DNA of 64,000 bases from Plumapathes pennacea (lineage: Eukaryota; Cnidaria; Anthozoa; Antipatharia; Myriopathidae): positions 15,306,443-15,370,442 of the forward strand of contig OZ038464.1 of assembly GCA_964036295.1 (NCBI GenBank), read 5' to 3'. The notes under the pieces are model-generated. The model worked only from the letters and a program-made list of their open reading frames with translations, did not search any database and had not been told where the DNA came from. Shown here piece after piece: positions 15,536 to 44,469 of the stretch. The stretch's first letter is position 1, and every line of letters starts with the position of its first letter. The position numbers and the translations under genes are program-made.

Positions 15536-15620
15536 AAATACTCGAGAATTAGCAGTTTGTGAAACAAAGTAGGACAGTAAGAAGCCTTAATCAACGGGAT
15601 TCGGAGCAATTAATAAGTGG

Positions 15621-15801
15621 CTTGGGTTGGTCGGTCGGAACGCCCTTCACTATGCGTGTCAGTCTGGTGACGTGGCGACGATAGAATTGTTTTTGGACAA
15701 AGGATTTAAGATTGACTGCGTTGACAAGGAAGGTTCCACCCCACTCCTGCTGACAGCGGGAAAAGGCCATGCGAACACTGTAACTTTCCTGCTGTCAAAA
15801 G
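15621..15801 (+). pseudogene. Array exon 1, truncated at its 5' end
   Basis: The exon reads LVGRNALHYACQSGDVATI and on to a unique TAGKGHANTV, with a normal AAAAG/gtaatg donor. Compared with other units, the sequence jumps from CAATTAATAAGT straight into TTGGGTTGGTCGG. About 0.55 kb is therefore missing, including the branch region, the acceptor and the first seven or so codons. It cannot be spliced in by the normal acceptor. Confidence 0.85.
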
Positions 15802-17102
15802 GTAATGGGTTCATCTAAGCGAGTGTTGCAAGTCAAAAGAGTTATTATCGTTTTACATCAGTTGGATAACAATTTGTCGTTTTGAAAGTCCAAAATACCG
15901 GTAAACCGTGGATTTAGATCACTTCCAATAGTGTGACGTTTTTGAGCACATGTTTTGCGATTTCTGGATTAAAAAACATGGTGTTTTTGTTACTAGAAAG
16001 CCCAGTGGTGTCAACATCCTGGTGTAGCGTAGTGTCACTTATGCAGAGCCGGACTGTACTTGGGATATTAAGATATTCGACGATAATATATAGTTCGGCG
16101 ACATAGACCAAAAGAGACTGAGGAGCGTGACTCCTCTAGTTGTGAACAAGACTTTCACATTTTGAGTCTTAGCGAAGAGAAACCGTGTGTCAACATCCTG
16201 GTGTAACGTAGTGTCACTTATGGGGAGCCGGGACTGTACTTGGGATATTAAGACATTTGACGATATATAGTTCGGCGACATAGACCAAAAGAGACTGAGG
16301 AGCGTGACGTCTCTAGTTGTGACCAAGACTTTCACATTTTGAGTCTTAACGAAGAGAAACCTTTATATAAAACACCTAATATAGGAGGAACCTACTGATG
16401 CTTGGAACAGCTAGGGTCAGAGTGTTATAAAATGTTGCTGTCGTTAATTAATGTACACCTCTAAAAAGAAAACCCTCGATATTTGATAGTTTATGGATTA
16501 TAGTAGGATACTAAAAGCCATCATGAGCAGGATTTGGCGCAATCAATAAGTCGTTGTGAGAAGCGCTTTTTAACTTACTAGATACGGAGTTGTAACTGCT
16601 ACTGGTCCTACTTTATCTTTCTTATTTTTCTTTCATATTATTTAAACCATTGGTGACTTTCCGTGAGAAGTTGGAATACGCGCTATTAGAAAGGAGCACG
16701 GGAAAGTAAAGAAGGAATTATTTAGGCACTTTTACAGTCATGAGCAGTAGCTAATGAAACTTTTTGATTTCCGTTAACGACTACCCTTGAACATGAAGTA
16801 AATCTTTTTTTCTGAGTTTAAGTTTTTGTCGAATTGAGCGGATGTCCCGACTCTGCCCAGGGAAGTTTGATTGTCAAGGGGCCCACCAAAATATCTCAGC
16901 CTCGCCAACTGCGCATGAGTGTGAACTTGGTTTGTTTAAACCTCCTATAATACCAAGAGAAATATTGTCAGCTAAACAAACCTTCACCAACCGGCGATGT
17001 AGTTTTAGAAATTGTTAGATTAAAGCTGTTTTACCAGAATCCAGCCTCTTATGCAATGTATGTGAGTTCACATTAAAGTTAATTACTTTGCTTTTATTGA
17101 AG

Positions 17103-17300
17103 GTGCTGATCTTCATGCTGTTGGGTTTGTCGGTCAGAACGCCCTTCACTATGCGTGTCAGTCTGGTGACGTGGCGACGATAGAATTGTTTTTGGACAAA
17201 GGATTTAAGATTGAGTGCGTTGACAAGCAAGGTTCCACCCCACTCCTGCTTGCAGCGGTAAAAGGCCATGCGAACACTGTAACTTTCCTGCTGTCAAAAG
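17103..17300 (+). CDS. Array exon 2: two ankyrin repeats
   Basis: Full 198-nt phase 1-1 exon. Numbering residues 1-66 from the split glycine, the variable sites read F9 V10 Q12, Y17, Q20, E38, Q43, S45, V53. Framework motifs NALHYAC and TPLLLAA are intact. Its following intron is shortened (see 17790-17822). Confidence 0.92.
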
Positions 17301-17789
17301 GTAATGGGTTCATCTAAGCGAGTGTTGCAAGTCAAAAGAGTTATTATCGTTTTACGTCAGTTAGATAACAATTTGTCGTTTTGAAGGTCCAAAATACCGG
17401 TAAACCGTAGATTTAGATCACTTCCAATAGTGTGACGTTTTTGAGCACATGTTTTGCGATTTCTGGATTAAAAAACATGGTGTTTTCGTTACTAGAAAGC
17501 CCAGTGGTGTCAACATCCTGGTGTAGCGTAGTGTCACTTATGCAGAGCCGGGACTGTACTTGGGATATTAAGATATTCGACGATAATATATAGTTCGGCG
17601 ACATAGACCAAAAGAGACTGAGGAGCGTGACTCCTCTAGTTGTGAACAAGACTTTCACATTTTGCGTCTTAGCGAAGAGAAACCATGTGTCAACATCCTG
17701 GTGTAACGTAGTGTCACTTATGGGGAGCCGGGACTGTACTTGGGATATTAAGACATTTGACGATATATAGTTCGGCGACATAGACCAAA

Positions 17790-17822
17790 AGATGGCAAAT
17801 GGTTTGAACCCAGGAGTGATGA
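17790..17822. other. Deletion junction with filler in the unit 2 intron
   Basis: After ATAGACCAAAAGA the other units continue with GACTGAGGAGCGTGAC. Here about 30 bases of unrelated sequence (ATGGCAAATGGTTTGAACCC and on) lead directly into the TTATAGTAGGATAC segment. That removes most of the second half of the duplicated intron block and explains the 1324-bp spacing. Confidence 0.8.
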
Positions 17823-18426
17823 TTATAGTAGGATACTAAAAGCCATCATGAGCGGGATTTGGCGCAATCAATAAGTCGTTGTGAGAAGCGCTTTTTAACT
17901 TACTAGATACGGAGTTGTAACTGCTACTGGTCCTACTTTATCTTTCTTATTTTTCTTTCATATTATTTAAACCATTGGTGACTTTCCGTGAGATGTTGGA
18001 ATACGCGCTATTAGAAAGGAGCACGGGAAAGTAAAGAAGGAATTATTTAGCCACTTTTACAGTCATGAGCAGTAGCTAATGAAACTTTTTGATTTCCGTT
18101 AACGACTACCCTTGAACATGAAGTAAATCTTTTTGCTGAGTTTAAGTTTTTGTCGAATTGAGCGGATGTCCCGACTCTGCCCAGGGAAGTTTGATTGTCA
18201 AGGGGCCCACCAAAATATCTCAGCTTCGCCAACTGCGCATGAGTGTGAACTTGGTTTGTTTAAACCTCCTATAATACCAAGAGAAATATTGTCAGCTAAA
18301 CAAACCTTCACCGACCGGCGATGTAGTTTTAGAAATTGTTAGATTAAAGCTGTTTTACCAGAATCCAGCCTCTTATGCAATGTATGTGAGTTCACATTAA
18401 AGTTAATTACTTTGCTTTTATTGAAG

Positions 18427-18624
18427 GTGCTGATCTTCATGCTGTTGGGTTTGTCGGTCAGAACGCCCTTCACTGTGCGTGTCACTCTGGTGACGTGGCG
18501 ACGATAGAATTGTTTTTGGACAAAGGATTTAAAATTGAGTGCGTTGACAAGCAAGGTTACACCCCACTCCTGCTTGCAGCGGTAAAAGGCCATGCGAGCA
18601 CTGTAACTTTCCTGCTGTCAAAAG
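18427..18624 (+). CDS. Array exon 3: two ankyrin repeats
   Basis: Intact 198-nt exon. Variable sites: F9 V10 Q12, C17 (NALHCAC), H20, E38, Q43, Y45, V53, S58. The conserved aromatic at 17 is replaced by cysteine as in exons 4, 10, 13, 18 and 19. Confidence 0.92.
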
Positions 18625-18830
18625 GTAATGGGTCCATCTAAGCGAGTGTTGCAAGTCAAAAGAGTTATTATCGTTTTACGTCAGTTAGATAACAATTTGT
18701 CGTTTTGAAGGTCCAAAATACCGGTAAACCGTGGATTTAGATCACTTCCAATAGTGTGACGTTTTTGAGCACATGTTTTGCGATTTCTGGATTAAAAAAC
18801 ATGGTGTTTTCGTTACTAGAAAGCCCAGTG

Positions 18831-19187
18831 GTGTCAACATCCTGGTGTAGCGTAGTGTCACTTATGCAGAGCCGGGACTGTACTTGGGATATTAAGATAT
18901 TCGACGATAATATATAGTTCGGCGACATAGACCAAAAGAGACTGAGGAGCGTGACTCCTCTAGTTGTGAACAAGACTTTCACATTTTGAGTCTTAGCGAA
19001 GAGAAACCGTGTGTCAACATCCTGGTGTAACGTAGTGTCACTTATGGGGAGCCGGGACTGTACTTGGGATATTAAGACATTTGACGATATATAGTTCGGC
19101 GACATAGACCAAAAGAGACTGAGGAGCGTGACGTCTCTAGTTGTGACCAAGACTTTCACATTTTGAGTCTTAACGAAGAGAAACATA
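18831..19187 (+). repeat. Intronic 180-bp tandem duplication (representative unit)
   Basis: GTGTCAACATCCTGGTGTA begins at 18831 and again at 19011. Each copy ends with CTAGTTGTGA..CAAGACTTTCACATTTTGAG. Because 180 is divisible by three, one antisense frame stays open through both copies and gives a 149-codon ORF in most units. I regard this as a by-product, not a gene. The first half begins GTGTAGCGTAG and the second GTGTAACGTAG in nearly all units, so the duplication predates array expansion. Confidence 0.9.
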
Positions 19188-19926
19188 TATATAAAACACC
19201 TAATATAGGAGGAACCTACTGATGCTTGGAACAGCTAGGGTCAGAGTGTTATAAAATGTTGCTGTCGTTAATTAATGTACACCTCTAAAAAGAAAACCCT
19301 CGATATTTGATAGTTTATGGATTATAGTAGGATACTAAAAGCCATCATGAGCAGGATTTGGCGCAATCAATAAGTCGTTGTGAGAAGCGCTTTTTAACTT
19401 ACTAGATACGGAGTTGTAACTGCTACTGGTCCTACTTTATCTTTCTTATTTTTCTTTCATATTATTTAAACCATTGGTGACTTTCCGTGAGAAGTTGGAA
19501 TACGCGCTATTAGAAAGGAGCACGGGAAAGTAAAGAAGGAATTATTTAGGCACTTTTACAGTCATGAGCAGTAGCTAATGAAACTTTTTGATTTCCGTTA
19601 ACGACTACCCTTGAACATGAAGTAAATCTTTTTTTCTGAGTTTAAGTTTTTGTCGAATTGAGCGGATGTCCCGAATCTGCCCAGGGAAGTTTGATTGTCA
19701 AGGGGTCCACCAAAATATCTCAGCCTCGCCAACTGCGCATGAGTGTGAACTTGGTTTGTTTAAACCTCCTATAATACCAAGAGAAATATTGTCAGCTAAA
19801 CAAACCTTCACCAACCGGCGATGTAGTTTCAGAAATTGTTAGATTAAAGCTGTTTTACCAGAATCCAGCCTCTTATGCAATGTATGTGAGTTCACATTAA
19901 AGTTAATTACTTTGCTTTTATTGAAG

Positions 19927-20124
19927 GTGCTGATCTTCATGCTGTTGGGTTTGTCGGTCAGAACGCCCTTCACTGTGCGTGTCAGTCTGGTGACGTGGCG
20001 ACGATAGAATTGTTTTTGGACAAAGGATTTAAGATTGAGTGCGTTGACGAGCAAGGTACCACCCCACTCCTGCTTGCAGCGGTAACAGGCCATGCGAACA
20101 CTGTAACTTTCCTGCTGTCAAAAG
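19927..20124 (+). CDS. Array exon 4: two ankyrin repeats
   Basis: Intact 198-nt exon. Variable sites: F9 V10 Q12, C17, Q20, E38, E42 (VDEQG instead of VDKQG), Q43, T45, V53, T54. Confidence 0.92.
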
Positions 20125-21426
20125 GTAATGGGTTCATCTAAGCGAGTGTTGCAAGTCAAAAGAGTTATTATCGTTTTACGTCAGTTAGATAACAGTTTGT
20201 CGTTTTGAAGGTCCAAAATACCGGTAAACCGTGGATTTAGATCACTTCCAATAGTGTGACGTTTTTGAGCACATGTTTTGCGATTTCTGGATTAAAAAAC
20301 ATAGTGTTTTCATTACTAGAAAGCCCAGTGGTGTCAACATCCTGGTGTAGCGTAGTGTCACTTATGCAGAGCCGGGACTGTACTTGGGATATTAAGATAT
20401 TCGACGATAATATATAGTTCGGCGACATAGACCAAAAGAGACTGAGGAGCGTGACTCCTCTAGTTGTGAACAAGACTTTCACATTTTGCGTCTTAGCGAA
20501 GAGAAACCGTGTGCCAACATCCTGGTGTAACGTAGTGTCACTTATGGGGAGCCGGGACTGTACTTGGGATATTAAGACATTTGACGATATATAGTTCGGC
20601 GACATAGACCAAAAGAGACTGAGGAGCGTGACGTCTCTAGTTGTGACCAAGACTTTCACATTTTGAGTCTTAACGAAGAGAAACATATATATAAAACACC
20701 TAATATAGGAGGAACCTACTGATGCTTGGAACAGCTAGGGTCAGAGTGTTATAAAATGTTGCTGTCGTTAATTAATGTACACCTCTAAAAAGAAAACCCT
20801 TGATATTTGATAGTTTATGGATTATAATAGGATACTAAAAGCCATCATGAGCGGGATTTGGCGCAATCAATAAGTCGTTGTGAGAAGCGCTTTTTAACTT
20901 ACTAGATACGGAGTTGTAACTGCTACTGGTCCTACTTTATCTTTCTTATTTTTCTTTCATATTATTTTAACCATTGGTGACTTTCCGTGAGAAGTTGGAA
21001 TACGCGCTATTAGAAATGAGCACGGGAAAGTAAAGAAGGAATTATTTAGGCACTTTTACAGTCATGAGCAGTAGCTAATGAAACTTTTTGATTTCCGTTA
21101 ACGACTACCCTTGAACATGAAGTAAATCTTTTTTTCTGAGTTTAAGTTTTTGTCGAATTGAGCGGATGTCCCGACTCTGCCCAGGGAAGTTTGATTGTCA
21201 AGGGGCCCACCAAAATATCTCAGCCTCGCCAACTGCGCATGAGTGTGAACTTGGTTTGTTTAAACCTCCTATAATACCAAGAGAAATATTGTCAGCTAAA
21301 CAAACCTTCACCAACCGGCGATGTAGTTTTAGAAATTGTTAGATTAAAGCTGTTTTACCAGAATCCAGCCTCTTATGCAATGTATGTGAGTTCACATTAA
21401 AGTTAATTACTTTGCTTTTATTGAAG

Positions 21427-21624
21427 GTGCTGATCTTCATGCTGTTGGGTTTGTCGGTCGGAACGCCCTTCACTATGCGTGTCAGTCTGGTGACGTGGCG
21501 ACGATAGAATTGTTTTTGGACAAAGGATTTAAGATTGAGTGCGTTGACAAGGAAGGTTCCACCCCACTCCTGCTTGCAGCGGTAAAAGGCCATGCGAACA
21601 CTGTAACTTTCCTGCTGTCAAAAG
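21427..21624 (+). CDS. Array exon 5: two ankyrin repeats
   Basis: Intact 198-nt exon. Variable sites: F9 V10 R12, Y17, Q20, E38, E43, S45, V53. The change to Arg12 starts the group with GRNALHYAC. Confidence 0.92.
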
Positions 21625-22927
21625 GTAATGGGTTCATCTAAGCGAGTGTTGCAAGTCAAAAGAGTTATTATCGTTTTACGTCAGTTAGATAACAATTTGT
21701 CGTTTTGAAGGTCCAAAATACCGGTAAACCGTGGATTTAGATCACTTCCAATAGTGTGACGTTTTTGAGCACATGTTTTTGCGATTTCTGGATTAAAAAA
21801 CATGGTGTTTTCGTTACTAGAAAGCCCAGTGGTGTCAACATCCTGGTGTAGCGTAGTGTCACTTATGCAGAGCCGGGACTGTACTTGGGATATTAAGATA
21901 TTCGACGATAATATATAGTTCGGCGACATAGACCAAAAGAGACTGAGGAGCGTGACTCCTCTAGTTGTGAACAAGACTTTCACATTTTGAGTCTTAACGA
22001 AGAGAAACCGTGTGTCAACATCCTGGTGTAACGTAGTGTCACTTATGGGGAGCCGGGACTGTACTTGGGATATTAAGACATTTGACGATATATAGTTCGG
22101 CGACATAGACTAAAAGAGACTGAGGAGCGTGACGTGTCTAGTTGTGACCAAGACTTTCACATTTTGAGTCTTAACGAAGAGAAACATATATATAAAACAC
22201 CTAATATAGGAGGAACCTACTCATACTTGGAACAGCTAGGGTCAGAGTGTTATAAAATGTTGCTGTCGTTAATTAATGTACACCTCTAAAAAAAAAACTC
22301 TCAATATTTGATAGTTTATGGATTATAATAGGATACTAAAAGCCATCATGAGCGGGATTTGGCGCAATCAATAAGTCGTTGTGAGAAGCGCTTTTTAACT
22401 TACTAGATACGGAGTTGTAACTGCTACTGGTCCTACTTTATCTTTCTTATTTTTCTTTCATATTATTTTAACCATTGGTGACTTTCCGTGAGAAGTTGGA
22501 ATACGCGCTATTAGAAAGGAGCACGGGAAAGTAAAGAAGGAATTATGTAGCCACTTTTACAGTCATGAGCAGTAGCTAATGAAACTTTTTGATTTCCGTT
22601 AACGACTACCCTTGAACATGAAGTAAATCTTATTTTCTGAGTTTAAGTTTTTGTCGAATTGAGCGGTTTGCCCGACTCTGCCCAGGGAAGTTTGATTGTC
22701 AAGGGGCCCACCAAAATATCTCAGCCTCGCCAACTGCGCATGAGTGTGAACTTGGTTTGTTTAAACCTCCTATAATACCAAGAGAAATATTGTCAGCTAA
22801 ACAAACCTTCACCAACCGGCGATGTAGTTTTAGAAATTGTTAGATTAAAGCTGTTTTACCAGAATCCAGCCTCTTATGCAATGTATGTTAGTTCACATTA
22901 AAGTTAATTACTTTGCTTTTATTGAAG

Positions 22928-23125
22928 GTGCTGATCTTCATGCTGTTGGGTTTCTCGGTCGGAACGCCCTTCACTATGCGTGTGAATCTAGTGACGTGGC
23001 GACGATAGAATTGCTTTTGGACAAAGAATTTAAGATTGACTGCGTTGACAAGGAAGGTTCCACCCCACTCCTGCATGCAGCGTCAAAAGGCCATGCGAAC
23101 ACTGTAACTTTCCTGCTGTCAAAAG
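22928..23125 (+). CDS. Array exon 6: two ankyrin repeats, divergent subtype
   Basis: Intact 198-nt exon. Variable sites: F9 L10 R12, E20, S22 (ACESSDV), L30, E34 (DKEF), D38, E43, S45, H50, S53. It shares ACESSDV and DKEF with exon 8, showing a local subfamily. Confidence 0.92.
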
Positions 23126-24429
23126 GTAATGGGTCCATCTAAGCGAGTGTTGCAAGTCAAAAGAGTTATTATCATTTTACGTCAGTTGGATAACAATTTG
23201 TCGTTTTGAAGGTCCAAAATACCGATAAACCGTGGATTTAGATCACTTCCAATAGTGTGACGTTTTTGAGCACATGTTTTGCGATTTCTGGATTAAAAAA
23301 CATGGTGTTTTCATTACTAGAAAGCCCAGTGGTGTCAACATCCTTGTGTAGCGTAGTGTCACTTATTCAGAGCCGGAACTGTACTTGGGATATTAAGATA
23401 TTCGACGATAATATATAGTTCGGCGACATAGACCAAAAGAGACTGAGGAGCGTGACTCCTCTAGTTGTGAACAAGACTTTCACATTTTGAGTCTTAACGA
23501 AGAGAAACCATGTGTCAACATCCTAGTGTAACAGAGTGTCACTTATGGGGAGCCGGGACTGTACTTGGGATATTAAGACATTTGACGATATATAGTTCGG
23601 CGACATAGACTAAAAGAGACTGAGGAGCGTGACGTCTCTAGTTGTGACCAGGACTTTCACATTTTTAGTCTTAACGAAGAAAAAGATATATATATAAAAC
23701 ACGTAATATAGAAGGAACCTACTCATGCTTGGAACAGCTAGGGTCAGAGGGTTATAAAATGTTGCTGTCATTAATTAATGTACACCTCTAAAAAGAAAAC
23801 CCTCGATATTTGATAGTTTATGGATTATAGTAGGATACTAAAAGCCATCATGAGCGGGATTTGGCGCAATCAATAAGTCGTTGTGAGAAGAGCTTTTTAA
23901 CTTACTAGATACGGAGTTATAACTGCTACTGGTCCTACTTTATCTTTCTTATTTTTCTTTCATATTATTTTAACCATTGGTGACTTTCCGTGAGAAGTTG
24001 GAATACGCGCTATTAGAAAGGAGCACGGGAAAGTAAAGAAGGAATTATGTAGGCACTTTTACAGTCATGAGCAGTAGCTAATGAAACTTTTTGATTTCTG
24101 TTAACGACTACCCTTGAACATGAAGTAAATCTTATTTTCTGAGTTTAAGTTTTTGTCGAATTGAGCGGAGGTCCCAACTCTGCCCAGGGAAGTTTGATTG
24201 TCAAGGTGCCCACCAAAATATCTCAGCCTCGCCAACTGCGCATGAGTGTGAACTTGGTTTGTTTAAACCTCCTGTAATACCAAGAGAAATATTGTCAGCT
24301 AAACAAACCTTCACCAACCGGCGATGTAGTTTTAGAAATTGTTAGATTAAAGCTGTTTTACCAGAATCCAGCCTCTTATGCAATGTATGTGAGTTCACAT
24401 TAAAGTTAATTACTTTGCTTTTTTTGAAG

Positions 24430-24627
24430 GTGCTGATCTTCATGCTTTTGGGTGGGTCGGTCGGAACGCCCTTCACTATGCGTGTAAGTCTGGTGACGTG
24501 GCGACGATAGAATTGTTTTTGGACAAAGGATTTAAGATTGACTGCGTTGACAAGGAAGGTGCCACCCCACTCCTGCTTGCAGCGTCAAAAGGCCATGCGA
24601 ACACTGTAACTTTCCTGCTGTCAAAAG
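24430..24627 (+). CDS. Array exon 7: two ankyrin repeats
   Basis: Intact 198-nt exon with F7 G8 W9, R12, K20, D38, E43, A45, S53. The Lys20 codon creates TGTAAGT, a good-looking internal donor near 24483; if used it would shorten the exon out of frame. The acceptor tract is TTTTTTTGAAG rather than TTTTATTGAAG. Confidence 0.9.
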
Positions 24628-25933
24628 GTAATGGGTTCATCTAAGCGAGTGTTGCAAGTCAAAAGAGTTATTATCGTTTTACGTCAGTTGGATAACAATT
24701 TGTCGTTTTGAAGGTCCAAAATACCGGTATACCGTAGATTTAGATCACTTCCAATAATGTGACGTTTTTGAGCACATGTTATGCGATTTCTGGATTAAAA
24801 AACATGGTGTTTTCGTTACTAGAAAGCCCAGTGGTGTCAACATCCTGGTGTAGCGTAGTGTCACTTATTCAGAGCCGGGACTGTACTTGGGATATTAAGA
24901 TATTCGACGATAATATATAGTTCGGCGACATAGACCAAAAGAGACTGAGGAGCATGACTCCTTTAGTTGTGAACAAGACTTTCACATTTTGAGTCTTAAC
25001 GAAGAGAAACCGTGTGTCAACATCCTGGTTTAACGCAGTGTCACTTATGGGTAGCCGGGTTTGTACTTGGGATATTAAGACATTTGACGATATATAGTTC
25101 GGCGACCTAGACTAAAAGAGACTGAGGAGCGTGACGTGTCTAGTTGTGACCAAGACTTTCACATTTTGAGTCTTAACGAAGAGAAACATATATATAAAAC
25201 ACCTAATATAGGAGGAACCTACTCATACTTGGAACAGCTAGGGTCAGAGTGTTATAAAATGTTGCTGTCGTTAATTAATGTACACCTCTAAAAAAAAAAC
25301 TCTCGATATTTGATAGTTTATGGATTATAATAGGATACTAAAAGCCATCATGAGCGGGATTTGGCGCAATCAATAAGTCGTTGTGAGAAGCGCTTTTTAA
25401 CTTACTAGATACGGAGTTGTAACTGCTACTGGTCCTACTTTATCTTTCTTATTTTTCTTTCATATTATTTTAACCATTGGTGACTTTCCGTGAGAAGTTG
25501 GAATACGCGCTATTAGAAAGGAGCACGGGAAAGTAAAGAAGGAATTATTTAGCCACTTTTACAGTCATGAGCAGTAGCTAATGAAACTTTTTGATTTCCG
25601 TTAACGACTACCCTTGAACATGAAGTAAATCTTATTTTCTGAGTTTAAGTTTTTGTCGAATTGAGCGGTTTGCCCGACTCTGCCCAGGGAAGTTTGATTG
25701 TCAAGGGGCCCACCAAAATATCTCAGCCTCGCCAACTGCGCATGAGTGTGAACTTGGTTTGTTTAAACCTCCTATAATACCAAGAGAAATATTGTCAGCT
25801 AAACAAACCTTCACCAACCGGCGATGTAGTTTTAGAAATTGTTAGATTAAAGCTGTTTTACCAGAATCCAGCCTCTTATGTAATGTGTGCGAGTTCACAT
25901 TAAAGTTAATTACTTTGCTTTTTTTTATTGAAG

Positions 25934-26131
25934 GTGCTGATCTTCATGCTGTTGGGTTAGTCGGTCGGAACGCCCTTCACTATGCGTGTGAATCTAGTGA
26001 CGTGGCGACGATAGAATTGTTTTTGGACAAAGAATTTAAGATTGACTGCGTTGACAAGGAAGGTTCCACCCCACTCCTGCTTGCAGCGTCAAAAGGCCAT
26101 GCGAACACTGTAACTTTCCTGCTGTCAAAAG
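25934..26131 (+). CDS. Array exon 8: two ankyrin repeats
   Basis: Intact 198-nt exon. Variable sites: L9 V10 R12, E20, S22, E34, D38, E43, S45, S53. The polypyrimidine tract before it is a few bases longer than in other units. Confidence 0.92.
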
Positions 26132-27440: not shown

Positions 27441-27638
27441 GTGCTGATCTTCATGCTGTTGGGTTAGTCGGTCGGAACGCCCTTCACTATGCGTGTGATT
27501 CTGGTGACGTGGCGACGATAGAATTGTTTTTGGACAAAGAATTTAAGATTGAGTGCGTTGACAAGCAAGGTTCCACCCCACTCCTGCTTGCAGCGTCAAA
27601 AGGCCATGCGAACACTGTAACTTTCCTGCTGTCAAAAG
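27441..27638 (+). CDS. Array exon 9: two ankyrin repeats
   Basis: Intact 198-nt exon. Variable sites: L9 V10 R12, D20, G22, E34, E38, Q43, S45, S53. It combines DKEF of exons 6 and 8 with the ECVDKQG block of exons 2-4, which looks like exchange between units. Confidence 0.92.
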
Positions 27639-28939: not shown

Positions 28940-29137
28940 GTGCTGATCTTCATGCTGTTGAGGTTCTCGGTCAGAACGCCCTTCACTGCGCGTGTCAGTC
29001 TGGTGACGTGGCGACGATAGAATTGTTTTTGGACAAAGGATTTAAGATTGAGTGCGTTGACAAGGAAGGTTACACCCCACTCCTGCTTGCAGCGGAAAAA
29101 GGCCATGGGAACACTGTAACTTTCCTGCTGTCAAAAG
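28940..29137 (+). CDS. Array exon 10 (type A): two ankyrin repeats
   Basis: Intact 198-nt exon. Type A signature: E8 V9 L10 Q12, C17, Q20, E38, E43, Y45, E53 and G57 (AAEKGHGNTV). First member of the higher-order A-B-C block. Confidence 0.92.
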
Positions 29138-30439: not shown

Positions 30440-30637
30440 GTGCTGATCTTCATGCTGTTGGGTTTCCCGGTCGGAACGCCCTTCACTATGCGTGTCAGTC
30501 TGGTGACGTGGCGACGATAGAATTGTTTTTGGACAAAGGATTTAAGATTGAGTGCGTTGACAAGAAAGGTTACACCCCACTCCTGCTTACAGTGCTAAAA
30601 GGCCATGCGAACACTGTAACTTTCCTGCTGTCAAAAG
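30440..30637 (+). CDS. Array exon 11 (type B): two ankyrin repeats
   Basis: Intact 198-nt exon. Type B signature: F9 P10 R12, Y17, Q20, E38, K43, Y45, T51 V52 L53 (LLLTVLKGH). The acceptor tract carries TTTCATTGAAG. A proline at 10 is unusual at this hairpin position. Confidence 0.92.
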
Positions 30638-31945: not shown

Positions 31946-32143
31946 GTGCTGATCTTCATGCTGTTGGGTTTCTCGGTCGGAACGCCCTTCACTATGCGTG
32001 TCAGTCTGGTGACGTGGCGACGATAGAATTGTTTTTGGACAAAGGATTTAAGATTGACTGCGTTGATAAGGAAGGTTACACCCCACTCCTGCTTGCAGCG
32101 CTGTCGGGCAATGCGAACACTGTAACTTTCCTGCTGTCAAAAG
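31946..32143 (+). CDS. Array exon 12 (type C): two ankyrin repeats
   Basis: Intact 198-nt exon. Type C signature: F9 L10 R12, Y17, Q20, D38, E43, Y45, L53 S54 and N56 (AALSGNANTV). The otherwise constant GH of the second repeat becomes GN. Confidence 0.92.
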
Positions 32144-33447
32144 GTAATGGGTCCATCTAAGCGAGTGTTGCAAGTCAAAAGAGTTATTATCGTTTTACGT
32201 CAGTTGGATAACAATTTGTCGTTTTGAAGGTCCAAAATACCGGTAAACCGTGGATTTAGATCACTTCCAATAGTGTGACGTTTTTGAGCACATGTTTTGC
32301 GATTTCTGGATTAAAAAACATGGTGTTTTTGTTACTAGAAAGCCCAGTGGTGTCAACATCCTGGTGTAGCGTAGTGTCACTTATGCAGAGCCGGGACTGT
32401 ACTTGGGATATTAAGATATTCGACGATAATATATAGTTCGGCGACATAGACCAAAAGAGACTGAGGAGCGTGACTCCTCTAGTTGTGAACAAGATTTTCA
32501 TATTTTGAGTCTTAGCGAAGAGAAACCGTGTGTCAACATCCTGGTGTAACGTAGTGTCACTTATGGGGAGCCGGGACTGTACTTGGGATATTAAGACATT
32601 TGACGATATATAGTTCGGCGACATAGACCAAAAGAGACTGAGGAGCGTGACGTCTCTAGTTGTGACCAAGACTTTCACATTTTGAGTCTTAACGAAGAGA
32701 AACATATATATAAAACACCTAATATAGGAGGAACCTACTGATGCTTGGAACAGCTAGGGTCACAGAGTGTTATAAAATGTTGCTGTCGTTAATTAATGTA
32801 TACCTCTAAAAAGAAAACCCTCGATATTTGATAGTTTATGGCTTATAGTAGGATACTAAAAGCCATCATGAGCGGGATTTGGCGCAATCAATAAGTCGTT
32901 GTGAGAAGCGCTTTTTAACTTACTAGATACGGAGTTGTAACTGCTACTGGTCCTACTTTATCTTTCTTATTTTTCTTTCATATTATTTTAACCATTGGTG
33001 ACTTTCCGTGAGAAGTTGGTATACGCGCTATTAGAAAGGAGCACGGGAAAGTAAAGAAGGAATTATTTAGCCACTTTTACAGTCATGAGCAGTAGCTAAT
33101 GAAACTTTTTGATTTCCGTTAACGACTACCCTTGAACATGAAGTAAATCCTTTTTTCTGAGTTTAAGTTTTTGTCGAATTGAGCGGATGTCCCGACTCTG
33201 CCCAGGGAAGTTTGATTGTCAAGGGGCCCACCAAAATATCTCAGCCTCGCCAACTGCGCATGAGTGTGAACTTGGTTTGTTTAAACCTCCTATAATACCA
33301 AGAGAAATATTGTCAGCTAAACAAACCTTCACCAACCGGCGATGTAGTTTTAGAAATTGTTAGATTAAAGCTGTTTTACCAGAATCCAGCTTCTTATGCA
33401 ATATATGTGAGTTCACATTAAAGTTAATTACTTTGCTTTTATTGAAG

Positions 33448-33645
33448 GTGCTGATCTTCATGCTGTTGAGGTTCTCGGTCAGAACGCCCTTCACTGCGCG
33501 TGTCAGTCTGGTGACGTGGCGACGATAGAATTGTTTTTGGACAAAGGATTTAAGATTGAGTGCGTTGACAAGGAAGGTTACACCCCACTCCTGCTTGCAG
33601 CGGAAAAAGGCCATGGGAACACTGTAACTTTCCTGCTGTCAAAAG
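33448..33645 (+). CDS. Array exon 13 (type A copy)
   Basis: Same sequence as exon 10 as far as I can read, exactly 4508 bp downstream of it. Starts the second A-B-C block. Confidence 0.92.
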
Positions 33646-34947
33646 GTAATGGGTCCATCTAAGCGAGTGTTGCAAGTCAAAAGAGTTATTATCGTTTTAC
33701 GTCAGTTGGATAACAATTTGTCGTTTTGAAGGTCCAAAATACCGGTAAACCGTGGATTTAGATCACTTCCAATAGTGTGACGTTTTTGAGCACATGTTTT
33801 GCGATTTCTGGATTAAAAAACATGGTGTTTTCGTTACTAGAAAGCCCAGTGGTGTCAACATCCTGGTGTAGCGTAGTGTCACTTATGCAGAGCCGGGACT
33901 GTACTTGGGATATTAAGATATTCGACGATAATATATAGTTCGGCGACATAGACCAAAAGAGACTGAGGAGCGTGACTCCTCTAGTTGTGAACAAGATTTT
34001 CATATTTTGAGTCTTAGCGAAGAGAAACCGTGTGTCAACATCCTGGTGTAACGTAGTGTCACTTATGGGGAGCCGGGACTGTACTTGGGATATTAAGACA
34101 TTTGACGATATATAGTTCGGCGACATAGACCAAAAGAGACTGAGGAGCGTGACGTCTCTAGTTGTGACCAAGACTTTCACATTTTGAGTCTTAACGAAGA
34201 GAAACATATATATAAAACACCTAATATAGGAGGAACCTACTGATGCTTGGAACAGCTAGGGTCAGAGTGTTATAAAATGTTGCTGTCGTTAATTAATGTA
34301 TACCTCTAAAAAGAAAACCCTCGATATTTGATAGTTTATGGCTTATAGTAGGATACTAAAAGCCATCATGAGCGGGATTTGGCGCAATCAATAAGTCGTT
34401 GTGAGGAGCGCTTTTTAACTTACTAGATACGGAGTTGTAACTGCTACTGGTCCTACTTTATCTTTCTTATTTATCTTTCATATTATTTTAACCATTGGTG
34501 ACTTTCCGTGAGAAGTTGGAATACGCGCTATTAGAAAGGAGCACGGGAAAGTAAAGAAGGAATTATTTAGCCACTTTTACAGTCATGAGCAGTAGCTAAT
34601 GAAACTTTTTGATTTCCGTTAACGACTACCCTTGAACATGAAGTAAATCCTTTTTTCTGAGTTTAAGTTTTTGTCGAATTGAGCGGATGTCCCGACTCTG
34701 CCCAGGGAAGTTTGATTGTCAAGGGGCCCACCAAAATATCTCAGCCTCGCCAACTGCGCATGAGTGTGAACTTGGTTTGTTTAAACCTCCTATAATACCA
34801 AGAGAAATATTGTCAGCTAAACAAACCTTCACCAACCGGCGATGTAGTTTTAGAAATTGTTAGATTAAAGCTGTTTTACCAGAATCCAGCCTCTTATGCA
34901 ATGTATGTGAGTTCACATTAAAGTTAATTACTTTGCTTTCATTGAAG

Positions 34948-35145
34948 GTGCTGATCTTCATGCTGTTGGGTTTCCCGGTCGGAACGCCCTTCACTATGCG
35001 TGTCAGTCTGGTGACGTGGCGACGATAGAATTGTTTTTGGACAAAGGATTTAAGATTGAGTGCGTTGACAAGAAAGGTTACACCCCACTCCTGCTTACAG
35101 TGCTAAAAGGCCATGCGAACACTGTAACTTTCCTGCTGTCAAAAG
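34948..35145 (+). CDS. Array exon 14 (type B copy)
   Basis: Same sequence as exon 11, 4508 bp downstream. The preceding intron carries the same GGCTTATAGTAGG and TTATTTATCTTTC variants. Confidence 0.92.
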
Positions 35146-36453
35146 GTAATGGGTCCATCTAAGCGAGTGTTGCAAGTCAAAAGAGTTATTATCGTTTTAC
35201 GTTAGTTGGATGACAATTTGTCGTTTTGAAGGTCCAAAATACTGGTAAACCGTGGATTTAGATCACTTCCAATAGTGTGACGTTTTTGAGCACATGTTTT
35301 GCGATTTCTGGATTAGAAAACATGGTGTTTTCGTTACTAGAAAGCCCAGTGGTGTCAACATCCTGGTGTAGCGTAGTGTCACTTATGCAGAGCCGGGACT
35401 GTACTTGGGATATTAAGATATTCGACGATAATATATAGTTCGGCGACATAGACCAAAAGAGACTGAGGAGCGTGACTCCTCTAGTTGTGAACAAGATTTT
35501 CATATTTTGAGTCTTAGCGAAGAGAAACCGTGTGCCAACATCCTGGTGTAACGTAGTGTCACTTATGGGGAGCCGGGACTGTACTTGGGATATTAAGACA
35601 TTTGACGATATATAGTTCGGCGACATAGACCAAAAGAGACTGAGGAGCGTGACGTCTCTAGTTGTGACCAAGACTTTCACATTTTGAGTCTTAACGAAGA
35701 TAAACATATATATAAAACACCTAATATAGGAGGAACCTACTGATGCTTGGAACAGCTAGGGTCAGAGTGTTATAAAATGTTGCTGTCGTTAATTAATGTA
35801 TACCTCTAAAAAGAAAACCCTCGATATTTGATAGTTTATGGCTTATAGTAGCCAGGATACTAAAAGGCATCATGAGCGGGATTTGGCGCAATCAATAAGT
35901 CGTTGTGAGAAGCGCTTTTTAACTTACTAGATACGGAGTTGTAACTGCTACTGGTCCTACTTTATCTTTCTTATTTTTCTTTCATATTATTTTAACCATT
36001 GGTGACTTTCCGTGAGAAGTTGGAATACGCGCTATTAGAAAGGAGCACGGGAAAGTAAAGAAGGAATTATTTAGCCACTTTTACAGTCATGAGCAGTAGC
36101 TAATGAAACTTTTTGATTTCCGTTAACGACTACCCTTGAACATGAAGTAAATCTTTTTTTTTCTGAGTTTAAGTTTTTGTCGAATTGAGCGGATGTCCCG
36201 ACTCTGCCCGGGGAAGTTTGATTGTCAAGGGGCCCACCAAAATATCTCAGCCTCGCCAACTGCGCATGAGTGTGAACTTGGTTTGTTTAAACCTCCTATA
36301 ATACCAAGAGAAATATTGTCAGCTAAACAAACCTTCACCAACCGGCGATGTAGTTTTAGAAATTGTTAGATTAAAGCTGTTTTACCAGAATCCAGCTTCT
36401 TATGCAATGAATGTGAGTTCACATTAAAGTTAATTACTTTGCTTTTATTGAAG

Positions 36454-36651
36454 GTGCTGATCTTCATGCTGTTGGGTTTCTCGGTCGGAACGCCCTTCAC
36501 TATGCGTGTCAGTCTGGTGACGTGGCGACGATAGAATTGTTTTTGGACAAAGGATTTAAGATTGACTGCGTTGATAAGGAAGGTTACACCCCACTCCTGC
36601 TTGCAGCGCTGTCGGGCAATGCGAACACTGTAACTTTCCTGCTGTCAAAAG
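36454..36651 (+). CDS. Array exon 15 (type C copy)
   Basis: Same sequence as exon 12, 4508 bp downstream. Its downstream intron is C-type until the GTGTTTTTGTTACTAG variant near 36834 but A-type by 37268 (GGGTCAGAGTG, lacking the extra CA). It therefore carries a recombination junction. Confidence 0.92.
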
Positions 36652-37953
36652 GTAATGGGTCCATCTAAGCGAGTGTTGCAAGTCAAAAGAGTTATTATCG
36701 TTTTACGTCAGTTGGATAACAATTTGTCGTTTTGAAGGTCCAAAATACCGGTAAACCGTGGATTTAGATCACTTCCAATAGTGTGACGTTTTTGAGCACA
36801 TGTTTTGCGATTTCTGGATTAAAAAACATGGTGTTTTTGTTACTAGAAAGCCCAGTGGTGTCAACATCCTGGTGTAGCGTAGTGTCACTTATGCAGAGCC
36901 GGGACTGTACTTGGGATATTAAGATATTCGACGATAATATATAGTTCGGCGACATAGACCAAAAGAGACTGAGGAGCGTGACTCCTCTAGTTGTGAACAA
37001 GATTTTCATATTTTGAGTCTTAGCGAAGAGAAACCGTGTGTCAACATCCTGGTGTAACGTAGTGTCACTTATGGGGAGCCGGGACTGTACTTGGGATATT
37101 AAGACATTTGACGATATATAGTTCGGCGACATAGACCAAAAGAGACTGAGGAGCGTGACGTCTCTAGTTGTGACCAAGACTTTCACATTTTGAGTCTTAA
37201 CGAAGAGAAACATATATATAAAACACCTAATATAGGAGGAACCTACTGATGCTTGGAACAGCTAGGGTCAGAGTGTTATAAAATGTTGCTGTCGTTAATT
37301 AATGTATACCTCTAAAAAGAAAACCCTCGATATTTGATAGTTTATGGCTTATAGTAGGATACTAAAAGCCATCATGAGCGGGATTTGGCGCAATCAATAA
37401 GTCGTTGTGAGGAGCGCTTTTTAACTTACTAGATACGGAGTTGTAACTGCTACTGGTCCTACTTTATCTTTCTTATTTATCTTTCATATTATTTTAACCA
37501 TTGGTGACTTTCCGTGAGAAGTTGGAATACGCGCTATTAGAAAGGAGCACGGGAAAGTAAAGAAGGAATTATTTAGCCACTTTTACAGTCATGAGCAGTA
37601 GCTAATGAAACTTTTTGATTTCCGTTAACGACTACCCTTGAACATGAAGTAAATCCTTTTTTCTGAGTTTAAGTTTTTGTCGAATTGAGCGGATGTCCCG
37701 ACTCTGCCCAGGGAAGTTTGATTGTCAAGGGGCCCACCAAAATATCTCAGCCTCGCCAACTGCGCATGAGTGTGAACTTGGTTTGTTTAAACCTCCTATA
37801 ATACCAAGAGAAATATTGTCAGCTAAACAAACCTTCACCAACCGGCGATGTAGTTTTAGAAATTGTTAGATTAAAGCTGTTTTACCAGAATCCAGCCTCT
37901 TATGCAATGTATGTGAGTTCACATTAAAGTTAATTACTTTGCTTTCATTGAAG

Positions 37954-38151
37954 GTGCTGATCTTCATGCTGTTGGGTTTCCCGGTCGGAACGCCCTTCAC
38001 TATGCGTGTCAGTCTGGTGACGTGGCGACGATAGAATTGTTTTTGGACAAAGGATTTAAGATTGAGTGCGTTGACAAGAAAGGTTACACCCCACTCCTGC
38101 TTACAGTGCTAAAAGGCCATGCGAACACTGTAACTTTCCTGCTGTCAAAAG
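37954..38151 (+). CDS. Array exon 16 (type B copy)
   Basis: Same sequence as exons 11 and 14; 3006 bp after exon 14. It follows a type C unit directly, with no type A unit between. Confidence 0.92.
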
Positions 38152-39459
38152 GTAATGGGTCCATCTAAGCGAGTGTTGCAAGTCAAAAGAGTTATTATCG
38201 TTTTACGTTAGTTGGATGACAATTTGTCGTTTTGAAGGTCCAAAATACTGGTAAACCGTGGATTTAGATCACTTCCAATAGTGTGACGTTTTTGAGCACA
38301 TGTTTTGCGATTTCTGGATTAGAAAACATGGTGTTTTCGTTACTAGAAAGCCCAGTGGTGTCAACATCCTGGTGTAGCGTAGTGTCACTTATGCAGAGCC
38401 GGGACTGTACTTGGGATATTAAGATATTCGACGATAATATATAGTTCGGCGACATAGACCAAAAGAGACTGAGGAGCGTGACTCCTCTAGTTGTGAACAA
38501 GATTTTCATATTTTGAGTCTTAGCGAAGAGAAACCGTGTGCCAACATCCTGGTGTAACGTAGTGTCACTTATGGGGAGCCGGGACTGTACTTGGGATATT
38601 AAGACATTTGACGATATATAGTTCGGCGACATAGACCAAAAGAGACTGAGGAGCGTGACGTCTCTAGTTGTGACCAAGACTTTCACATTTTGAGTCTTAA
38701 CGAAGATAAACATATATATAAAACACCTAATATAGGAGGAACCTACTGATGCTTGGAACAGCTAGGGTCAGAGTGTTATAAAATGTTGCTGTCGTTAATT
38801 AATGTATACCTCTAAAAAGAAAACCCTCGATATTTGATAGTTTATGGCTTATAGTAGCCAGGATACTAAAAGGCATCATGAGCGGGATTTGGCGCAATCA
38901 ATAAGTCGTTGTGAGAAGCGCTTTTTAACTTACTAGATACGGAGTTGTAACTGCTACTGGTCCTACTTTATCTTTCTTATTTTTCTTTCATATTATTTTA
39001 ACCATTGGTGACTTTCCGTGAGAAGTTGGAATACGCGCTATTAGAAAGGAGCACGGGAAAGTAAAGAAGGAATTATTTAGCCACTTTTACAGTCATGAGC
39101 AGTAGCTAATGAAACTTTTTGATTTCCGTTAACGACTACCCTTGAACATGAAGTAAATCTTTTTTTTTCTGAGTTTAAGTTTTTGTCGAATTGAGCGGAT
39201 GTCCCGACTCTGCCCGGGGAAGTTTGATTGTCAAGGGGCCCACCAAAATATCTCAGCCTCGCCAACTGCGCATGAGTGTGAACTTGGTTTGTTTAAACCT
39301 CCTATAATACCAAGAGAAATATTGTCAGCTAAACAAACCTTCACCAACCGGCGATGTAGTTTTAGAAATTGTTAGATTAAAGCTGTTTTACCAGAATCCA
39401 GCTTCTTATGCAATGAATGTGAGTTCACATTAAAGTTAATTACTTTGCTTTTATTGAAG

Positions 39460-39657
39460 GTGCTGATCTTCATGCTGTTGGGTTTCTCGGTCGGAACGCC
39501 CTTCACTATGCGTGTCAGTCTGGTGACGTGGCGACGATAGAATTGTTTTTGGACAAAGGATTTAAGATTGACTGCGTTGATAAGGAAGGTTACACCCCAC
39601 TCCTGCTTGCAGCGCTGTCGGGCAATGCGAACACTGTAACTTTCCTGCTGTCAAAAG
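39460..39657 (+). CDS. Array exon 17 (type C copy)
   Basis: Same sequence as exons 12 and 15; 3006 bp after exon 15. Its downstream intron has the GGGTCACAGAGTG variant seen after exon 12. Confidence 0.92.
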
Positions 39658-40961
39658 GTAATGGGTCCATCTAAGCGAGTGTTGCAAGTCAAAAGAGTTA
39701 TTATCGTTTTACGTCAGTTGGATAACAATTTGTCGTTTTGAAGGTCCAAAATACCGGTAAACCGTGGATTTAGATCACTTCCAATAGTGTGACGTTTTTG
39801 AGCACATGTTTTGCGATTTCTGGATTAAAAAACATGGTGTTTTTGTTACTAGAAAGCCCAGTGGTGTCAACATCCTGGTGTAGCGTAGTGTCACTTATGC
39901 AGAGCCGGGACTGTACTTGGGATATTAAGATATTCGACGATAATATATAGTTCGGCGACATAGACCAAAAGAGACTGAGGAGCGTGACTCCTCTAGTTGT
40001 GAACAAGATTTTCATATTTTGAGTCTTAGCGAAGAGAAACCGTGTGTCAACATCCTGGTGTAACGTAGTGTCACTTATGGGGAGCCGGGACTGTACTTGG
40101 GATATTAAGACATTTGACGATATATAGTTCGGCGACATAGACCAAAAGAGACTGAGGAGCGTGACGTCTCTAGTTGTGACCAAGACTTTCACATTTTGAG
40201 TCTTAACGAAGAGAAACATATATATAAAACACCTAATATAGGAGGAACCTACTGATGCTTGGAACAGCTAGGGTCACAGAGTGTTATAAAATGTTGCTGT
40301 CGTTAATTAATGTATACCTCTAAAAAGAAAACCCTCGATATTTGATAGTTTATGGCTTATAGTAGGATACTAAAAGCCATCATGAGCGGGATTTGGCGCA
40401 ATCAATAAGTCGTTGTGAGAAGCGCTTTTTAACTTACTAGATACGGAGTTGTAACTGCTACTGGTCCTACTTTATCTTTCTTATTTTTCTTTCATATTAT
40501 TTTAACCATTGGTGACTTTCCGTGAGAAGTTGGTATACGCGCTATTAGAAAGGAGCACGGGAAAGTAAAGAAGGAATTATTTAGCCACTTTTACAGTCAT
40601 GAGCAGTAGCTAATGAAACTTTTTGATTTCCGTTAACGACTACCCTTGAACATGAAGTAAATCCTTTTTTCTGAGTTTAAGTTTTTGTCGAATTGAGCGG
40701 ATGTCCCGACTCTGCCCAGGGAAGTTTGATTGTCAAGGGGCCCACCAAAATATCTCAGCCTCGCCAACTGCGCATGAGTGTGAACTTGGTTTGTTTAAAC
40801 CTCCTATAATACCAAGAGAAATATTGTCAGCTAAACAAACCTTCACCAACCGGCGATGTAGTTTTAGAAATTGTTAGATTAAAGCTGTTTTACCAGAATC
40901 CAGCTTCTTATGCAATATATGTGAGTTCACATTAAAGTTAATTACTTTGCTTTTATTGAAG

Positions 40962-41159
40962 GTGCTGATCTTCATGCTGTTGAGGTTCTCGGTCAGAACG
41001 CCCTTCACTGCGCGTGTCAGTCTGGTGACGTGGCGACGATAGAATTGTTTTTGGACAAAGGATTTAAGATTGAGTGCGTTGACAAGGAAGGTTACACCCC
41101 ACTCCTGCTTGCAGCGGTAAAAGGCCATGGGAACACTGTAACTTTCCTGCTGTCAAAAG
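40962..41159 (+). CDS. Array exon 18 (type A variant)
   Basis: Type A signature (E8 V9 L10 Q12, C17, G57) but V53 instead of E53, from one base change (GTA for GAA). It lies 7514 bp after exon 13, the sum of the 4508- and 3006-bp offsets. Its intron has a few private changes (GAGCTGGGAC, AAAATACCTAA). Confidence 0.92.
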
Positions 41160-42461
41160 GTAATGGGTCCATCTAAGCGAGTGTTGCAAGTCAAAAGAGT
41201 TATTATCGTTTTACGTCAGTTGGATAACAATTTGTCGTTTTGAAGGTCCAAAATACCGGTAAACCGTGGATTTAGATCACTTCCAATAGTGTGACGTTTT
41301 TGAGCACATGTTTTGCGATTTCTGGATTAAAAAACATGGTGTTTTCGTTACTAGAAAGCCCAGTGGTGTCAACATCCTGGTGTAGCGTAGTGTCACTTAT
41401 GCAGAGCCGGGACTGTACTTGGGATATTAAGATATTCGACGATAATATATAGTTCGGCGACATAGACCAAAAGAGACTGAGGAGCGTGACTCCTCTAGTT
41501 GTGAACAAGATTTTCACATTTTGAGTCTTAGCGAAGAGAAACCGTGTGTCAACATCCTGGTGTAACGTAGTGTCACTTATGGGGAGCTGGGACTGTACTT
41601 GGGATATTAAGACATTTGACGATATATAGTTCGGCGACATAGACCAAAAGAGACTGAGGAGCGTGACGTCTCTAGTTGTGACCAAGACTTTCACATTTTG
41701 AGTCTTAACGAAGAGAAACATATATATAAAATACCTAATATAGGAGGAACCTACTGATCCTTGGAACAGCTAGGGTCAGAGTGTTATAAAATGTTGCTGT
41801 CGTTAATTAATGTATACCTCTAAAAAGAAAACCCTCGATATTTGATAGTTTATGGATTATAGTAGGATACTAAAAGCCATCATGAGCGGGATTTGGCGCA
41901 ATCAATAAGTCGTTGTGAGAAGCGCTTTTTAACTTACTAGATACGGAGTTGTAACTGCTACTGGTCCTACTTTATCTTTCTTATTTTTCTTTCATATTAT
42001 TTTAACCATTGGTGACTTTCCGTGAGAAGTTGGAGTACGCGCTATTAGAAAGGTGCACGGGAAAGTAAAGAAGGAATTATTTAGCCACTTTTACAGTCAT
42101 GAGCAGTAGCTAATGAAACTTTTTGATTTCCGTTAACGACTACCCTTGAACATGAAGTAAATCCTTTTTTCTGAGTTTAAGTTTTTGTCGAATTGAGCGG
42201 ATGTCCCGACTCTGCCCAGGGAAGTTTGATTGTCAAGGGGCCCACCAAAATATCTCAGCCTCGCCAACTGCGCATGAGTGTGAACTTGGTTTGTTTAAAC
42301 CTCCTATAATACCAAGAGAAATATTGTCAGCTAAACAAACCTTCACCAACCGGCGATGTAGTTTTAGAAATTGTTATATTAAAGCTGTTTTACCAGAATC
42401 CAGCCTCTTATGCAATGTATGTGAGTTCACATTAAAGTTAATTACTTTGCTTTTATTGAAG

Positions 42462-42659
42462 GTTCTGATCTTCATGCTGTTGGGTTTCTCGGTCAGAACG
42501 CCCTTCACTGTGCGTGTCATTCTGGTGACGTGGCGACGATAGAATTGTTTTTGGACAAAGGATTTAAGATTGAGTGCGTTGACAAGGAAGGTTACACCCC
42601 ACTCCTGTTTGCAGCGCTGTCGGGCAATGCGAACACTGTAACTTTCCTGCTGTCAAAAG
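42462..42659 (+). CDS. Array exon 19: last exon of the tandem array
   Basis: Intact 198-nt exon that looks mosaic. The first repeat is like exon 3 (Q12, C17, H20) with S2 in place of Ala (GGTTCTGAT), while the second repeat ends like type C (L53 S54 N56) with F50. The donor is normal. Downstream the intron departs from the array and becomes the tail sequence, with a 16-nt T run near 42816-42832. Confidence 0.92.
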
Positions 42660-43289
42660 GTAATGGGTCCATCTAAGCGAGTGTTGCAAGTCAAAAGAGT
42701 TATTATCGTTTTACGTTAGTTAGATAACAATTTGTCGTTTTGAAGGTCCAAAATACCGGTAAACCGTGGATTTAGATCACTTCCAATAGTGTGACGTCTT
42801 TAGCACATTTTTTCTTTTTTTTTTTTTTTTTTGCGATTTCTGGATTAAAAAACATGGTGTTTTCGTTACTAGAGATCCCAGTGGTGTCAACATCCTGCTG
42901 TTGCGTAGTGTCATTTATGGAGAGCCGGGACTGTACTTGTGATATTAAGATACGTGTCGACTTAGTTTTTTTGTTGTCGTAATTGGAATTTAATCCATGC
43001 GCTATTCTGAAAAAGCCTCGATAATTTATAATTTGATTACGTGATGGAAGTTATGAGTGTCCTGGTACCCATAAGTGAGAAAGGTTTTTTGTTCCCGCTT
43101 GTCTGAGCTTGATTGGATCGAGACGTCAAGCCATTGACCTAGTGTCTCAACCTTCAGTAACACCATATTGGCACTCGCACGCTCTCCAAACGAGTAGCGA
43201 AATATCTCCGGTGTTGTGGTCTGATATAAAGTGCCACCCTTTAACCTAATGTTAGCTCGTTGTCACCTTCTCAATCGTGACTGCCGCTG

Positions 43290-44464: not shown

Positions 44465-44469
44465 AATCC
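44465..44469 (+). other. Target-site duplication (AATCC) left of the Penelope-like element
   Basis: AATCC occurs here and at 45790-45794. The second tail copy near 59376-59390 has a single GCATAATCCGCTTAAT, which is the unoccupied site. Confidence 0.85.

Follow-up and report, generated by a model that had tools for sequence, protein, structure and literature searches.

In brown algae, tandem same-phase exons for leucine-rich repeats (LRRs) in ROCO genes are shuffled and amplified, positive selection acts on the concave ligand face, and the products are candidate immune receptors (PMC11378527). Such repeat-exon arrays, in ROCO genes and in NB-TPR genes as described in the same source, are the closest published analogue, closer than Dscam, of the locus dealt with here: 18 exons, each for two ankyrin repeats, in 64,000 nt of the antipatharian Plumapathes pennacea (GCA_964036295.1, contig OZ038464.1, hereafter C3, in a genome of 290 Mb in 24 contigs). 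This whole stretch, C3:15306443-15370442, is the window, and positions without a contig prefix are counted from its first letter. The array is on balance probably the expandable recognition part of a large ankyrin-HEPN-kinase gene, i.e. a fast-expanding, diversified and cumulatively spliced solenoid in what may be a sensor for intracellular defence. As in the brown-algal arrays, tandem exons of equal length and the same phase encode solenoid repeats, and diversifying selection, as judged by counting, bears on the ligand face. The ROCO exons, however, have 72 nt for one LRR and accompany a ROC-COR GTPase (PMC11378527), whereas here 198-nt exons for two ankyrin repeats accompany a HEPN domain and an IRE1-like kinase; moreover, this is an animal gene, its units of ~1.5 kb were amplified together with their introns, and ~30 related genes are clustered, making an array of arrays. 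Neither a ROC-COR domain nor an NB domain with LRR or TPR was found on the exons scanned with Pfam, where only ankyrin, HEPN and kinase models matched.

RNase L has 9 ankyrin repeats, fewer than the up to 48 of the present gene. The two share N-terminal ankyrin repeats and an IRE1-class kinase in one frame, plus a domain of the HEPN superfamily, to which KEN belongs (PMC3710099). Unlike in RNase L, the HEPN domain is here of the DZIP3 type and stands before the kinase, and the frame stops after the kinase with no C-terminal KEN. In its presumed way of working the array gene resembles both the brown-algal arrays and RNase L, yet it belongs to neither kind, because neither a ROC-COR or NB domain nor KEN was found. 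The kringle-IV type 2 array of LPA likewise has multi-kb tandem exon-bearing units, variable in copy number, whose in-frame splicing makes the length of the protein vary, but its kringles are near-identical units of a secreted protein, without a diversified binding face, while the units here are diversified on theirs. Insect Dscam1 has tandem homologous exons able to diversify a recognition surface, though these encode immunoglobulin domains and not ankyrin repeats. They are also mutually exclusive (PMC1397879, among others), and a simple search of one array unit against parts of the two introns bordering the present array detected no docking/selector pairing. Cnidarians offer a further parallel, this time on the side of the effector: the DZIP3-type HEPN is expanded in Nematostella, where it is fused to ankyrin, CARD, NACHT, DEATH and LRR (PMC3710099), and anthozoans have many NACHT-HEPN proteins in a cnidarian survey (PMC8260672), so that the same HEPN family occurs there in immune-type architectures. 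In the accessible parts of these two papers, which describe other fusions as well, no protein that combines ankyrin, HEPN and kinase and has an exon array is mentioned, and no paper on such an array was found among the listed titles and beginnings of abstracts in the open-access literature, which does not imply absence elsewhere.

The array runs along the forward strand from 17103 to 42659. Every one of its 18 intact exons has 198 nt (66 residues, two 33-residue ankyrin repeats), an AG before it, a GTAATG donor after it, phase 1-1 and an open frame, in full agreement with the preliminary description of the stretch, which had claimed 18 units of ~1.5 kb with open, phase 1-1 ankyrin exons of this length and common splice sites. 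In order, exons w01 to w18 are at 17103-17300, 18427-18624, 19927-20124, 21427-21624, 22928-23125, 24430-24627, 25934-26131, 27441-27638, 28940-29137, 30440-30637, 31946-32143, 33448-33645, 34948-35145, 36454-36651, 37954-38151, 39460-39657, 40962-41159 and 42462-42659, with a spacing of 1499-1511 bp except for the first interval (1324 bp). The sole array exon run against Pfam, w01, matched Ank_2 at 2e-12 (47.9 bits vs a curated cut-off of 27.3); ankyrin models were also matched above cut-off by exons at 7741, 49317 and 57840, and a local profile from four exons of the array gene recovers 18/18 array exons. The span of 15536-42957 given in the preliminary description does hold the 18 intact exons, but its left edge also encloses a truncated 19th copy (~15622-15801, start approximate, +) that has kept its open frame and donor and lost its acceptor and first residues; the same truncated form recurs in a paralogous gene at C3:15468923 with 98.6% identity. 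Outside that range is a further intact copy of 198 nt, phase 1-1 (57838-58035, +), and a half-conserved relic of a decayed ankyrin exon is at 48617-48724 (+). Three things go beyond the preliminary description altogether, namely that exons of the array type recur throughout a group of clustered paralogues, that several array units are identical to one another, and that the flanking exons identify the gene. The introns of most array units contain a 177-bp tandem duplication (e.g. 16008-16361), its second copy being truncated after w01.

The array exons vary mainly on the target-binding face of the ankyrin repeats. The comparison drew on 42 units with AG/GT around 198 nt (only such units were entered), 17 from the window, five from gene 3 and 20 loci, of which 33 distinct ones were left when nine exact duplicates were dropped (L001, L004 and L017, which are window units themselves, among them). 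Units w18 and w19 were excluded for flanks that differ by 11-15%, while L018, a locus with w18-like flanks, was retained and raises the intron figure; rates were taken from -594 to +480 only, as misalignment sets in beyond +480, probably through the 177-bp intron duplications. In 33-nt bins the 33 units differ by 1.6-12% in the exon and 0.6-3.7% in the flanks, and diversity is 0.060 at nonsynonymous sites (pi_N), 0.034 at synonymous sites (pi_S) and 0.0195 in introns (pi_intron), giving a nonsynonymous/intron ratio of 3.06 (95% confidence interval 1.83-4.62) and a nonsynonymous/synonymous ratio of 1.75 (1.04-3.87). The whole-exon nonsynonymous/synonymous comparison was rejected as proof of positive selection, being weak by counts and modest by pairwise diversity, and it is a position-specific test that carries the claim. 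An engineered ankyrin library was randomised at positions 2, 3, 5, 10, 13 and 14, whose side chains are on one exposed surface (PMC3308923), and surface positions serve as the paratope in DARPins (PMC8683736). The test used residues 2, 3, 5, 13 and 14 of each repeat, i.e. 10 of 65 codons (position 10 was left out and would add two changes); these positions come from an outside source but were named after the pattern had been noticed in a per-codon table. The ten face codons carry 25 of the 49 nonsynonymous changes (binomial p 6.5e-9). By counting, omega on the face reaches 7.1 when only the 15 distinct window units are taken, 5.6 for the 18 others and 4.9 for all 33 together, as against 0.71-0.84 elsewhere, and set against all synonymous changes the face excess has p 4.6e-7, 1.5e-5 and 1.1e-6, respectively. 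These p-values are optimistic, the sets sharing ancestry and conversion between units making changes non-independent. Purifying selection at the codons outside the face was not significant (p 0.28-0.38). That repeats change fast is not as such new, because a general survey of repeats within proteins already finds accelerated divergence, sometimes with positive selection (PMC5120217).

The gene to which the array belongs was modelled on ~200 kb of sequence around the window. It begins with a start exon (5518-5587, +; ATG, donor phase 1), which resembles those of the two genes that come next (DNA identity 75% and 88%), followed by exon 2 with two ankyrin repeats (7739-7948, +; 210 nt, phase 1-1). 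Downstream of the array come a two-ankyrin exon of different type (49315-49518, +; 204 nt, phase 1-1), the outlying array-type copy at 57838-58035 and, outside the window, three further two-ankyrin exons at C3:15372064, C3:15375709 and C3:15397531, a penultimate exon for a DZIP3-type HEPN with, by eye, a coiled-coil-like stretch (C3:15416700-15417412), and a last exon for an IRE1-like kinase with the stop (from C3:15418371). The gene thus extends beyond the window, to ~107 kb, with introns of up to ~22 kb and ~69 kb between the end of the array and the kinase exon. Joined, the 27 exons (start, 24 two-ankyrin, HEPN/coiled-coil, kinase) give a single frame of 2127 residues with matching phases and AG/GT borders, the acceptor and donor of the HEPN exon (AAG/GTTGGT) having been selected among nearby sites to make the phases fit. 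In the computed model, inclusion of all 18 array exons yields 2127 residues and of none 939, and the preliminary claim that any subset splices without change of frame was upheld: 500/500 random subsets, computed on the whole gene model, remained in frame and reached the same C-terminus.

How the exons are used in transcripts is where readings diverge. Cumulative splicing, with the array exons normally joined one after another, seems from the exon structure the best fit, and of what the preliminary description had offered, one protein with 36 extra repeats agrees best. That description had offered as well a combinatorial set of proteins, in which transcripts would include differing subsets of the 18 exons and many ankyrin receptors would come from one gene. 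The phase symmetry of 18/18 exons, their near-identical splice sites and the in-frame outcome of every random subset would all permit this, and the brown-algal ROCO precedent, where LRR exons of one phase with selected concave sites give several splice variants (PMC11378527), lends it some plausibility; but the splice-site sequences hardly vary between units, and there is for that reason no sign of individual regulation. Subset splicing is thought unlikely, if worth taking seriously, and it is compatible with cumulative splicing rather than exclusive of it. The likening to Dscam proved weak. Mutually exclusive splicing, with exactly one array exon per transcript, has in its favor that tandem homologous exons of equal length are its usual setting (PMC9013439). 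Yet Dscam arrays depend on exclusion, and the docking/selector complementarity searched for here, between one array unit and stretches of the introns either side of the array, came to 11 nt and 22.3 bits at best and did not exceed shuffled controls (medians 22.3 and 24.3 bits), though weak or gapped pairing would escape such a search. In addition, ankyrin solenoids lengthen naturally by addition, and symmetric exons offer no reason of frame for exclusion. Use of one exon at a time is thus hardly credible here.

In the penultimate exon PF18738 (DZIP3-type HEPN) matches with E 1.2e-51 and 174.7 bits vs a cut-off of 27, and the sequence RNEVYGH there fits the R-x4-6-H nuclease motif named in PMC3710099, by which nuclease function is predicted. 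The kinase family was scored on the exon of the preceding paralogous gene, whose 3′ end is in the window (3935-4756, +; IRE1-like kinase exon with stop; Pkinase 9.2e-44 in Pfam, best PDB matches being IRE1 at 1e-40), and carried over to the array gene through the 91% DNA identity between the two kinase exons. The same preceding gene has, by eye, a coiled-coil-like exon at 1424-1563 (+; phase 1 to 0). Upstream of that exon, window positions 1-1280 hold reverse-transcriptase-like fragments (LINE type by eye), at a place occupied by the HEPN exon in other members of the cluster; the only fragment of these scanned, 674-1171, matched no reverse-transcriptase model in Pfam.

Around the window, at C3:14.0-16.0 Mb, some 30 ankyrin-kinase genes related to one another form a cluster, and about half of them have a HEPN match. 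This interval holds 29 of 119 kinase matches, all with at least 63% identity and two with a stop, as well as 14 of the 51 HEPN matches, and each of the 13 plus-strand HEPN matches starts 1.7-10.3 kb before a kinase exon. Among 150 scored matches to the exon-2 type, 31 are both strong and in the interval, the array gene's included, and one more strong match is on C5. For C3:14.4-16.0 Mb, 27 plus-strand kinase exons are listed, 13 with an upstream HEPN match. In those genes that are without one, HEPN may have been lost, replaced, never present, or be too diverged for detection; they include the preceding gene and the genes of its three most similar kinase exons (at 15058329, 15109721 and 15248279 of C3). 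A run of at least three array-type exons is present in 14 of the 27 kinase-bounded intervals, that of the window being the longest listed, with counts that are lower bounds, as each search scored 150 candidates (of 870 in the search for array-type exons). None of the 23 genome matches to KEN (PF06479; 25 candidates scored) is within C3:14.0-16.0 Mb. Most of these 23 sit in open frames of 500-2274 residues. One open frame, L047 (C6:7634012-7635196, -), has ankyrin, kinase and KEN in an RNase L-like order (Pkinase 9.3e-54, Ribonuc_2-5A 6.9e-18 and Ank_2 4.1e-10 in Pfam), and another, L046 (C3:24269661-24270803), is a 792-residue frame with an LRR-like part (by eye), a hydrophobic stretch, an IRE1-like kinase and KEN.

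Identical units occur both within the array and between arrays. Units w10, w13 and w15 are identical including 420-nt flanks, as are w11, w14 and w16, with w13=w15 and w11=w16 holding across 1478 bp; exon w09 is identical to that of w12 and w17 is 1 nt from both, so that the 3′ half of the array has the unit order A-B-C-A-B-C-B-C-A'. Such an order is typical of unequal exchange, and is equally the place for assembly errors. Elsewhere, a 1478-bp unit in an array at 15.12 Mb is identical to w04 and another in an array at 15.26 Mb to w03, while the intact exons listed for these arrays are at least 12 and at least 8 (one truncated copy having been subtracted from each), vs 18 in the window. If nothing is missing from the array lists, arrays gain or lose exons faster than their sequence diverges. 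The exact number of 18 depends on the assembly, and the identical blocks, being easily mis-assembled, might even suggest that the array or its length has been inflated; against this are the 12 distinct exons among the 15 distinct window units, flank differences of up to ~3.7% within w01-w17 (the flanks of w18 differing from these by ~11-13%), and the runs of other lengths at many other places on C3, and an artefact is regarded as improbable. A different doubt is whether units merely carried along by unequal exchange, as an expanding segmental duplication without function, have exons that are skipped or decaying. Decayed copies at 15622-15801 and 48617 and mobile elements in introns, e.g. at 44467-45618, would be expected from that. 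However, 18/18 consecutive units are intact and their splice sites constant, a stop is present in only one of the 150 best-scoring relatives of the array exons (in a list biased toward good copies), and changes focused on the functional face, with omega about 5-7, are unlike drift, all of which makes functionless expansion decidedly improbable.

The reading of the array as the recognition part of a defence sensor can be put as a mechanism. Splice dinucleotides, phases, the joined frame, the paralogue cluster, the listed differences in array length and the face-focused amino-acid change are what is observed. Cumulative splicing would produce a solenoid of up to 48 ankyrin repeats whose faces could bind varied ligands, and unequal crossing-over together with conversion between units and genes would add, remove and reshuffle exons. 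Binding of a ligand might cluster the protein and switch on the kinase, plus HEPN where present, and activated HEPN would then probably cleave RNA as a defence response. In function the product would thus be comparable to RNase L (ankyrin-kinase-RNase), with its domains in permuted order and a front part that evolves fast. More tentatively, and with rather less than even confidence, the cluster as a whole may be what animals have in place of anticipatory receptor systems built on repeats. In its ~30 ankyrin-kinase genes, of which about half have HEPN, cassettes of two repeats that keep their splice signals intact would be amplified, swapped between genes and diversified on the face; array length and order would differ from one gene copy to another, and probably also among individuals and among transcripts, and the whole would feed a permuted, RNase L-like, RNA-cleaving switch. 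If this is so, an early-branching animal lineage multiplies entire exon cassettes to make its intracellular recognition proteins variable, and selection acts there on the very ankyrin positions chosen for randomisation in protein engineering. Recognition by exon cassettes would be coupled to an RNase/kinase switch, so that an effector like RNase L would have been reached independently and in permuted form, and the diversification of intracellular recognition in animals without antibodies would become testable at a single locus.

Several points tell against the sensor interpretation and need to be set beside it. Synonymous diversity is nominally above intron diversity (ratio 1.75, confidence interval 0.68-3.19), and because of this the peak of divergence over the exon may owe something to conversion from exons of greater age. 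The 63 distinct changes comprise 49 nonsynonymous and 14 synonymous, vs 44.4 nonsynonymous expected, no clear excess for the exon as a whole, and 5 of the 14 synonymous changes are also at face codons. The lack of indels in the aligned exons (0, where the intron rate would predict 3.8; P 0.02) is, like the AG/GT test, in part a product of how the units were chosen, those from outside the window being best protein matches; absence of stops was rejected as proof of coding, being weak by itself (P 0.23). Introns of up to ~22 kb could conceal further exons or the boundaries of separate genes. HEPN is far from universal, with no match upstream of 14 among the 27 plus-strand kinase exons, that of the preceding gene included, and the decayed array copies already mentioned are also pertinent. 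Finally, cumulative splicing is deduced from the DNA, and a role in defence is suggested by domain kinship and the pattern of selection.

Some other features of the region and genome deserve mention. An open frame in an intron of the array gene (44467-45618) matches GIY-YIG (7e-6) and has reverse-transcriptase similarity below cut-off; by eye it is Penelope-like. The array region is flanked by inverted copies of a repeat (14464-15396 and 52685-53644, with similar translations on opposite strands, by eye), and a second repeat is common to ~10440-11990 and ~50085-51640 (by eye). Away from C3, kinase matches of 53-62% identity with nearby HEPN matches of 37-68% are present at C10:13.88-14.04 Mb, C11:14.22-14.24 Mb and C2:7.70 Mb, and these loci are likely older relatives of the gene family. 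At C24:4629-6872, on a small contig, COX1 is interrupted by ~850 nt and contains an in-frame TGA, which suggests a mitochondrial genome with a cox1 intron.

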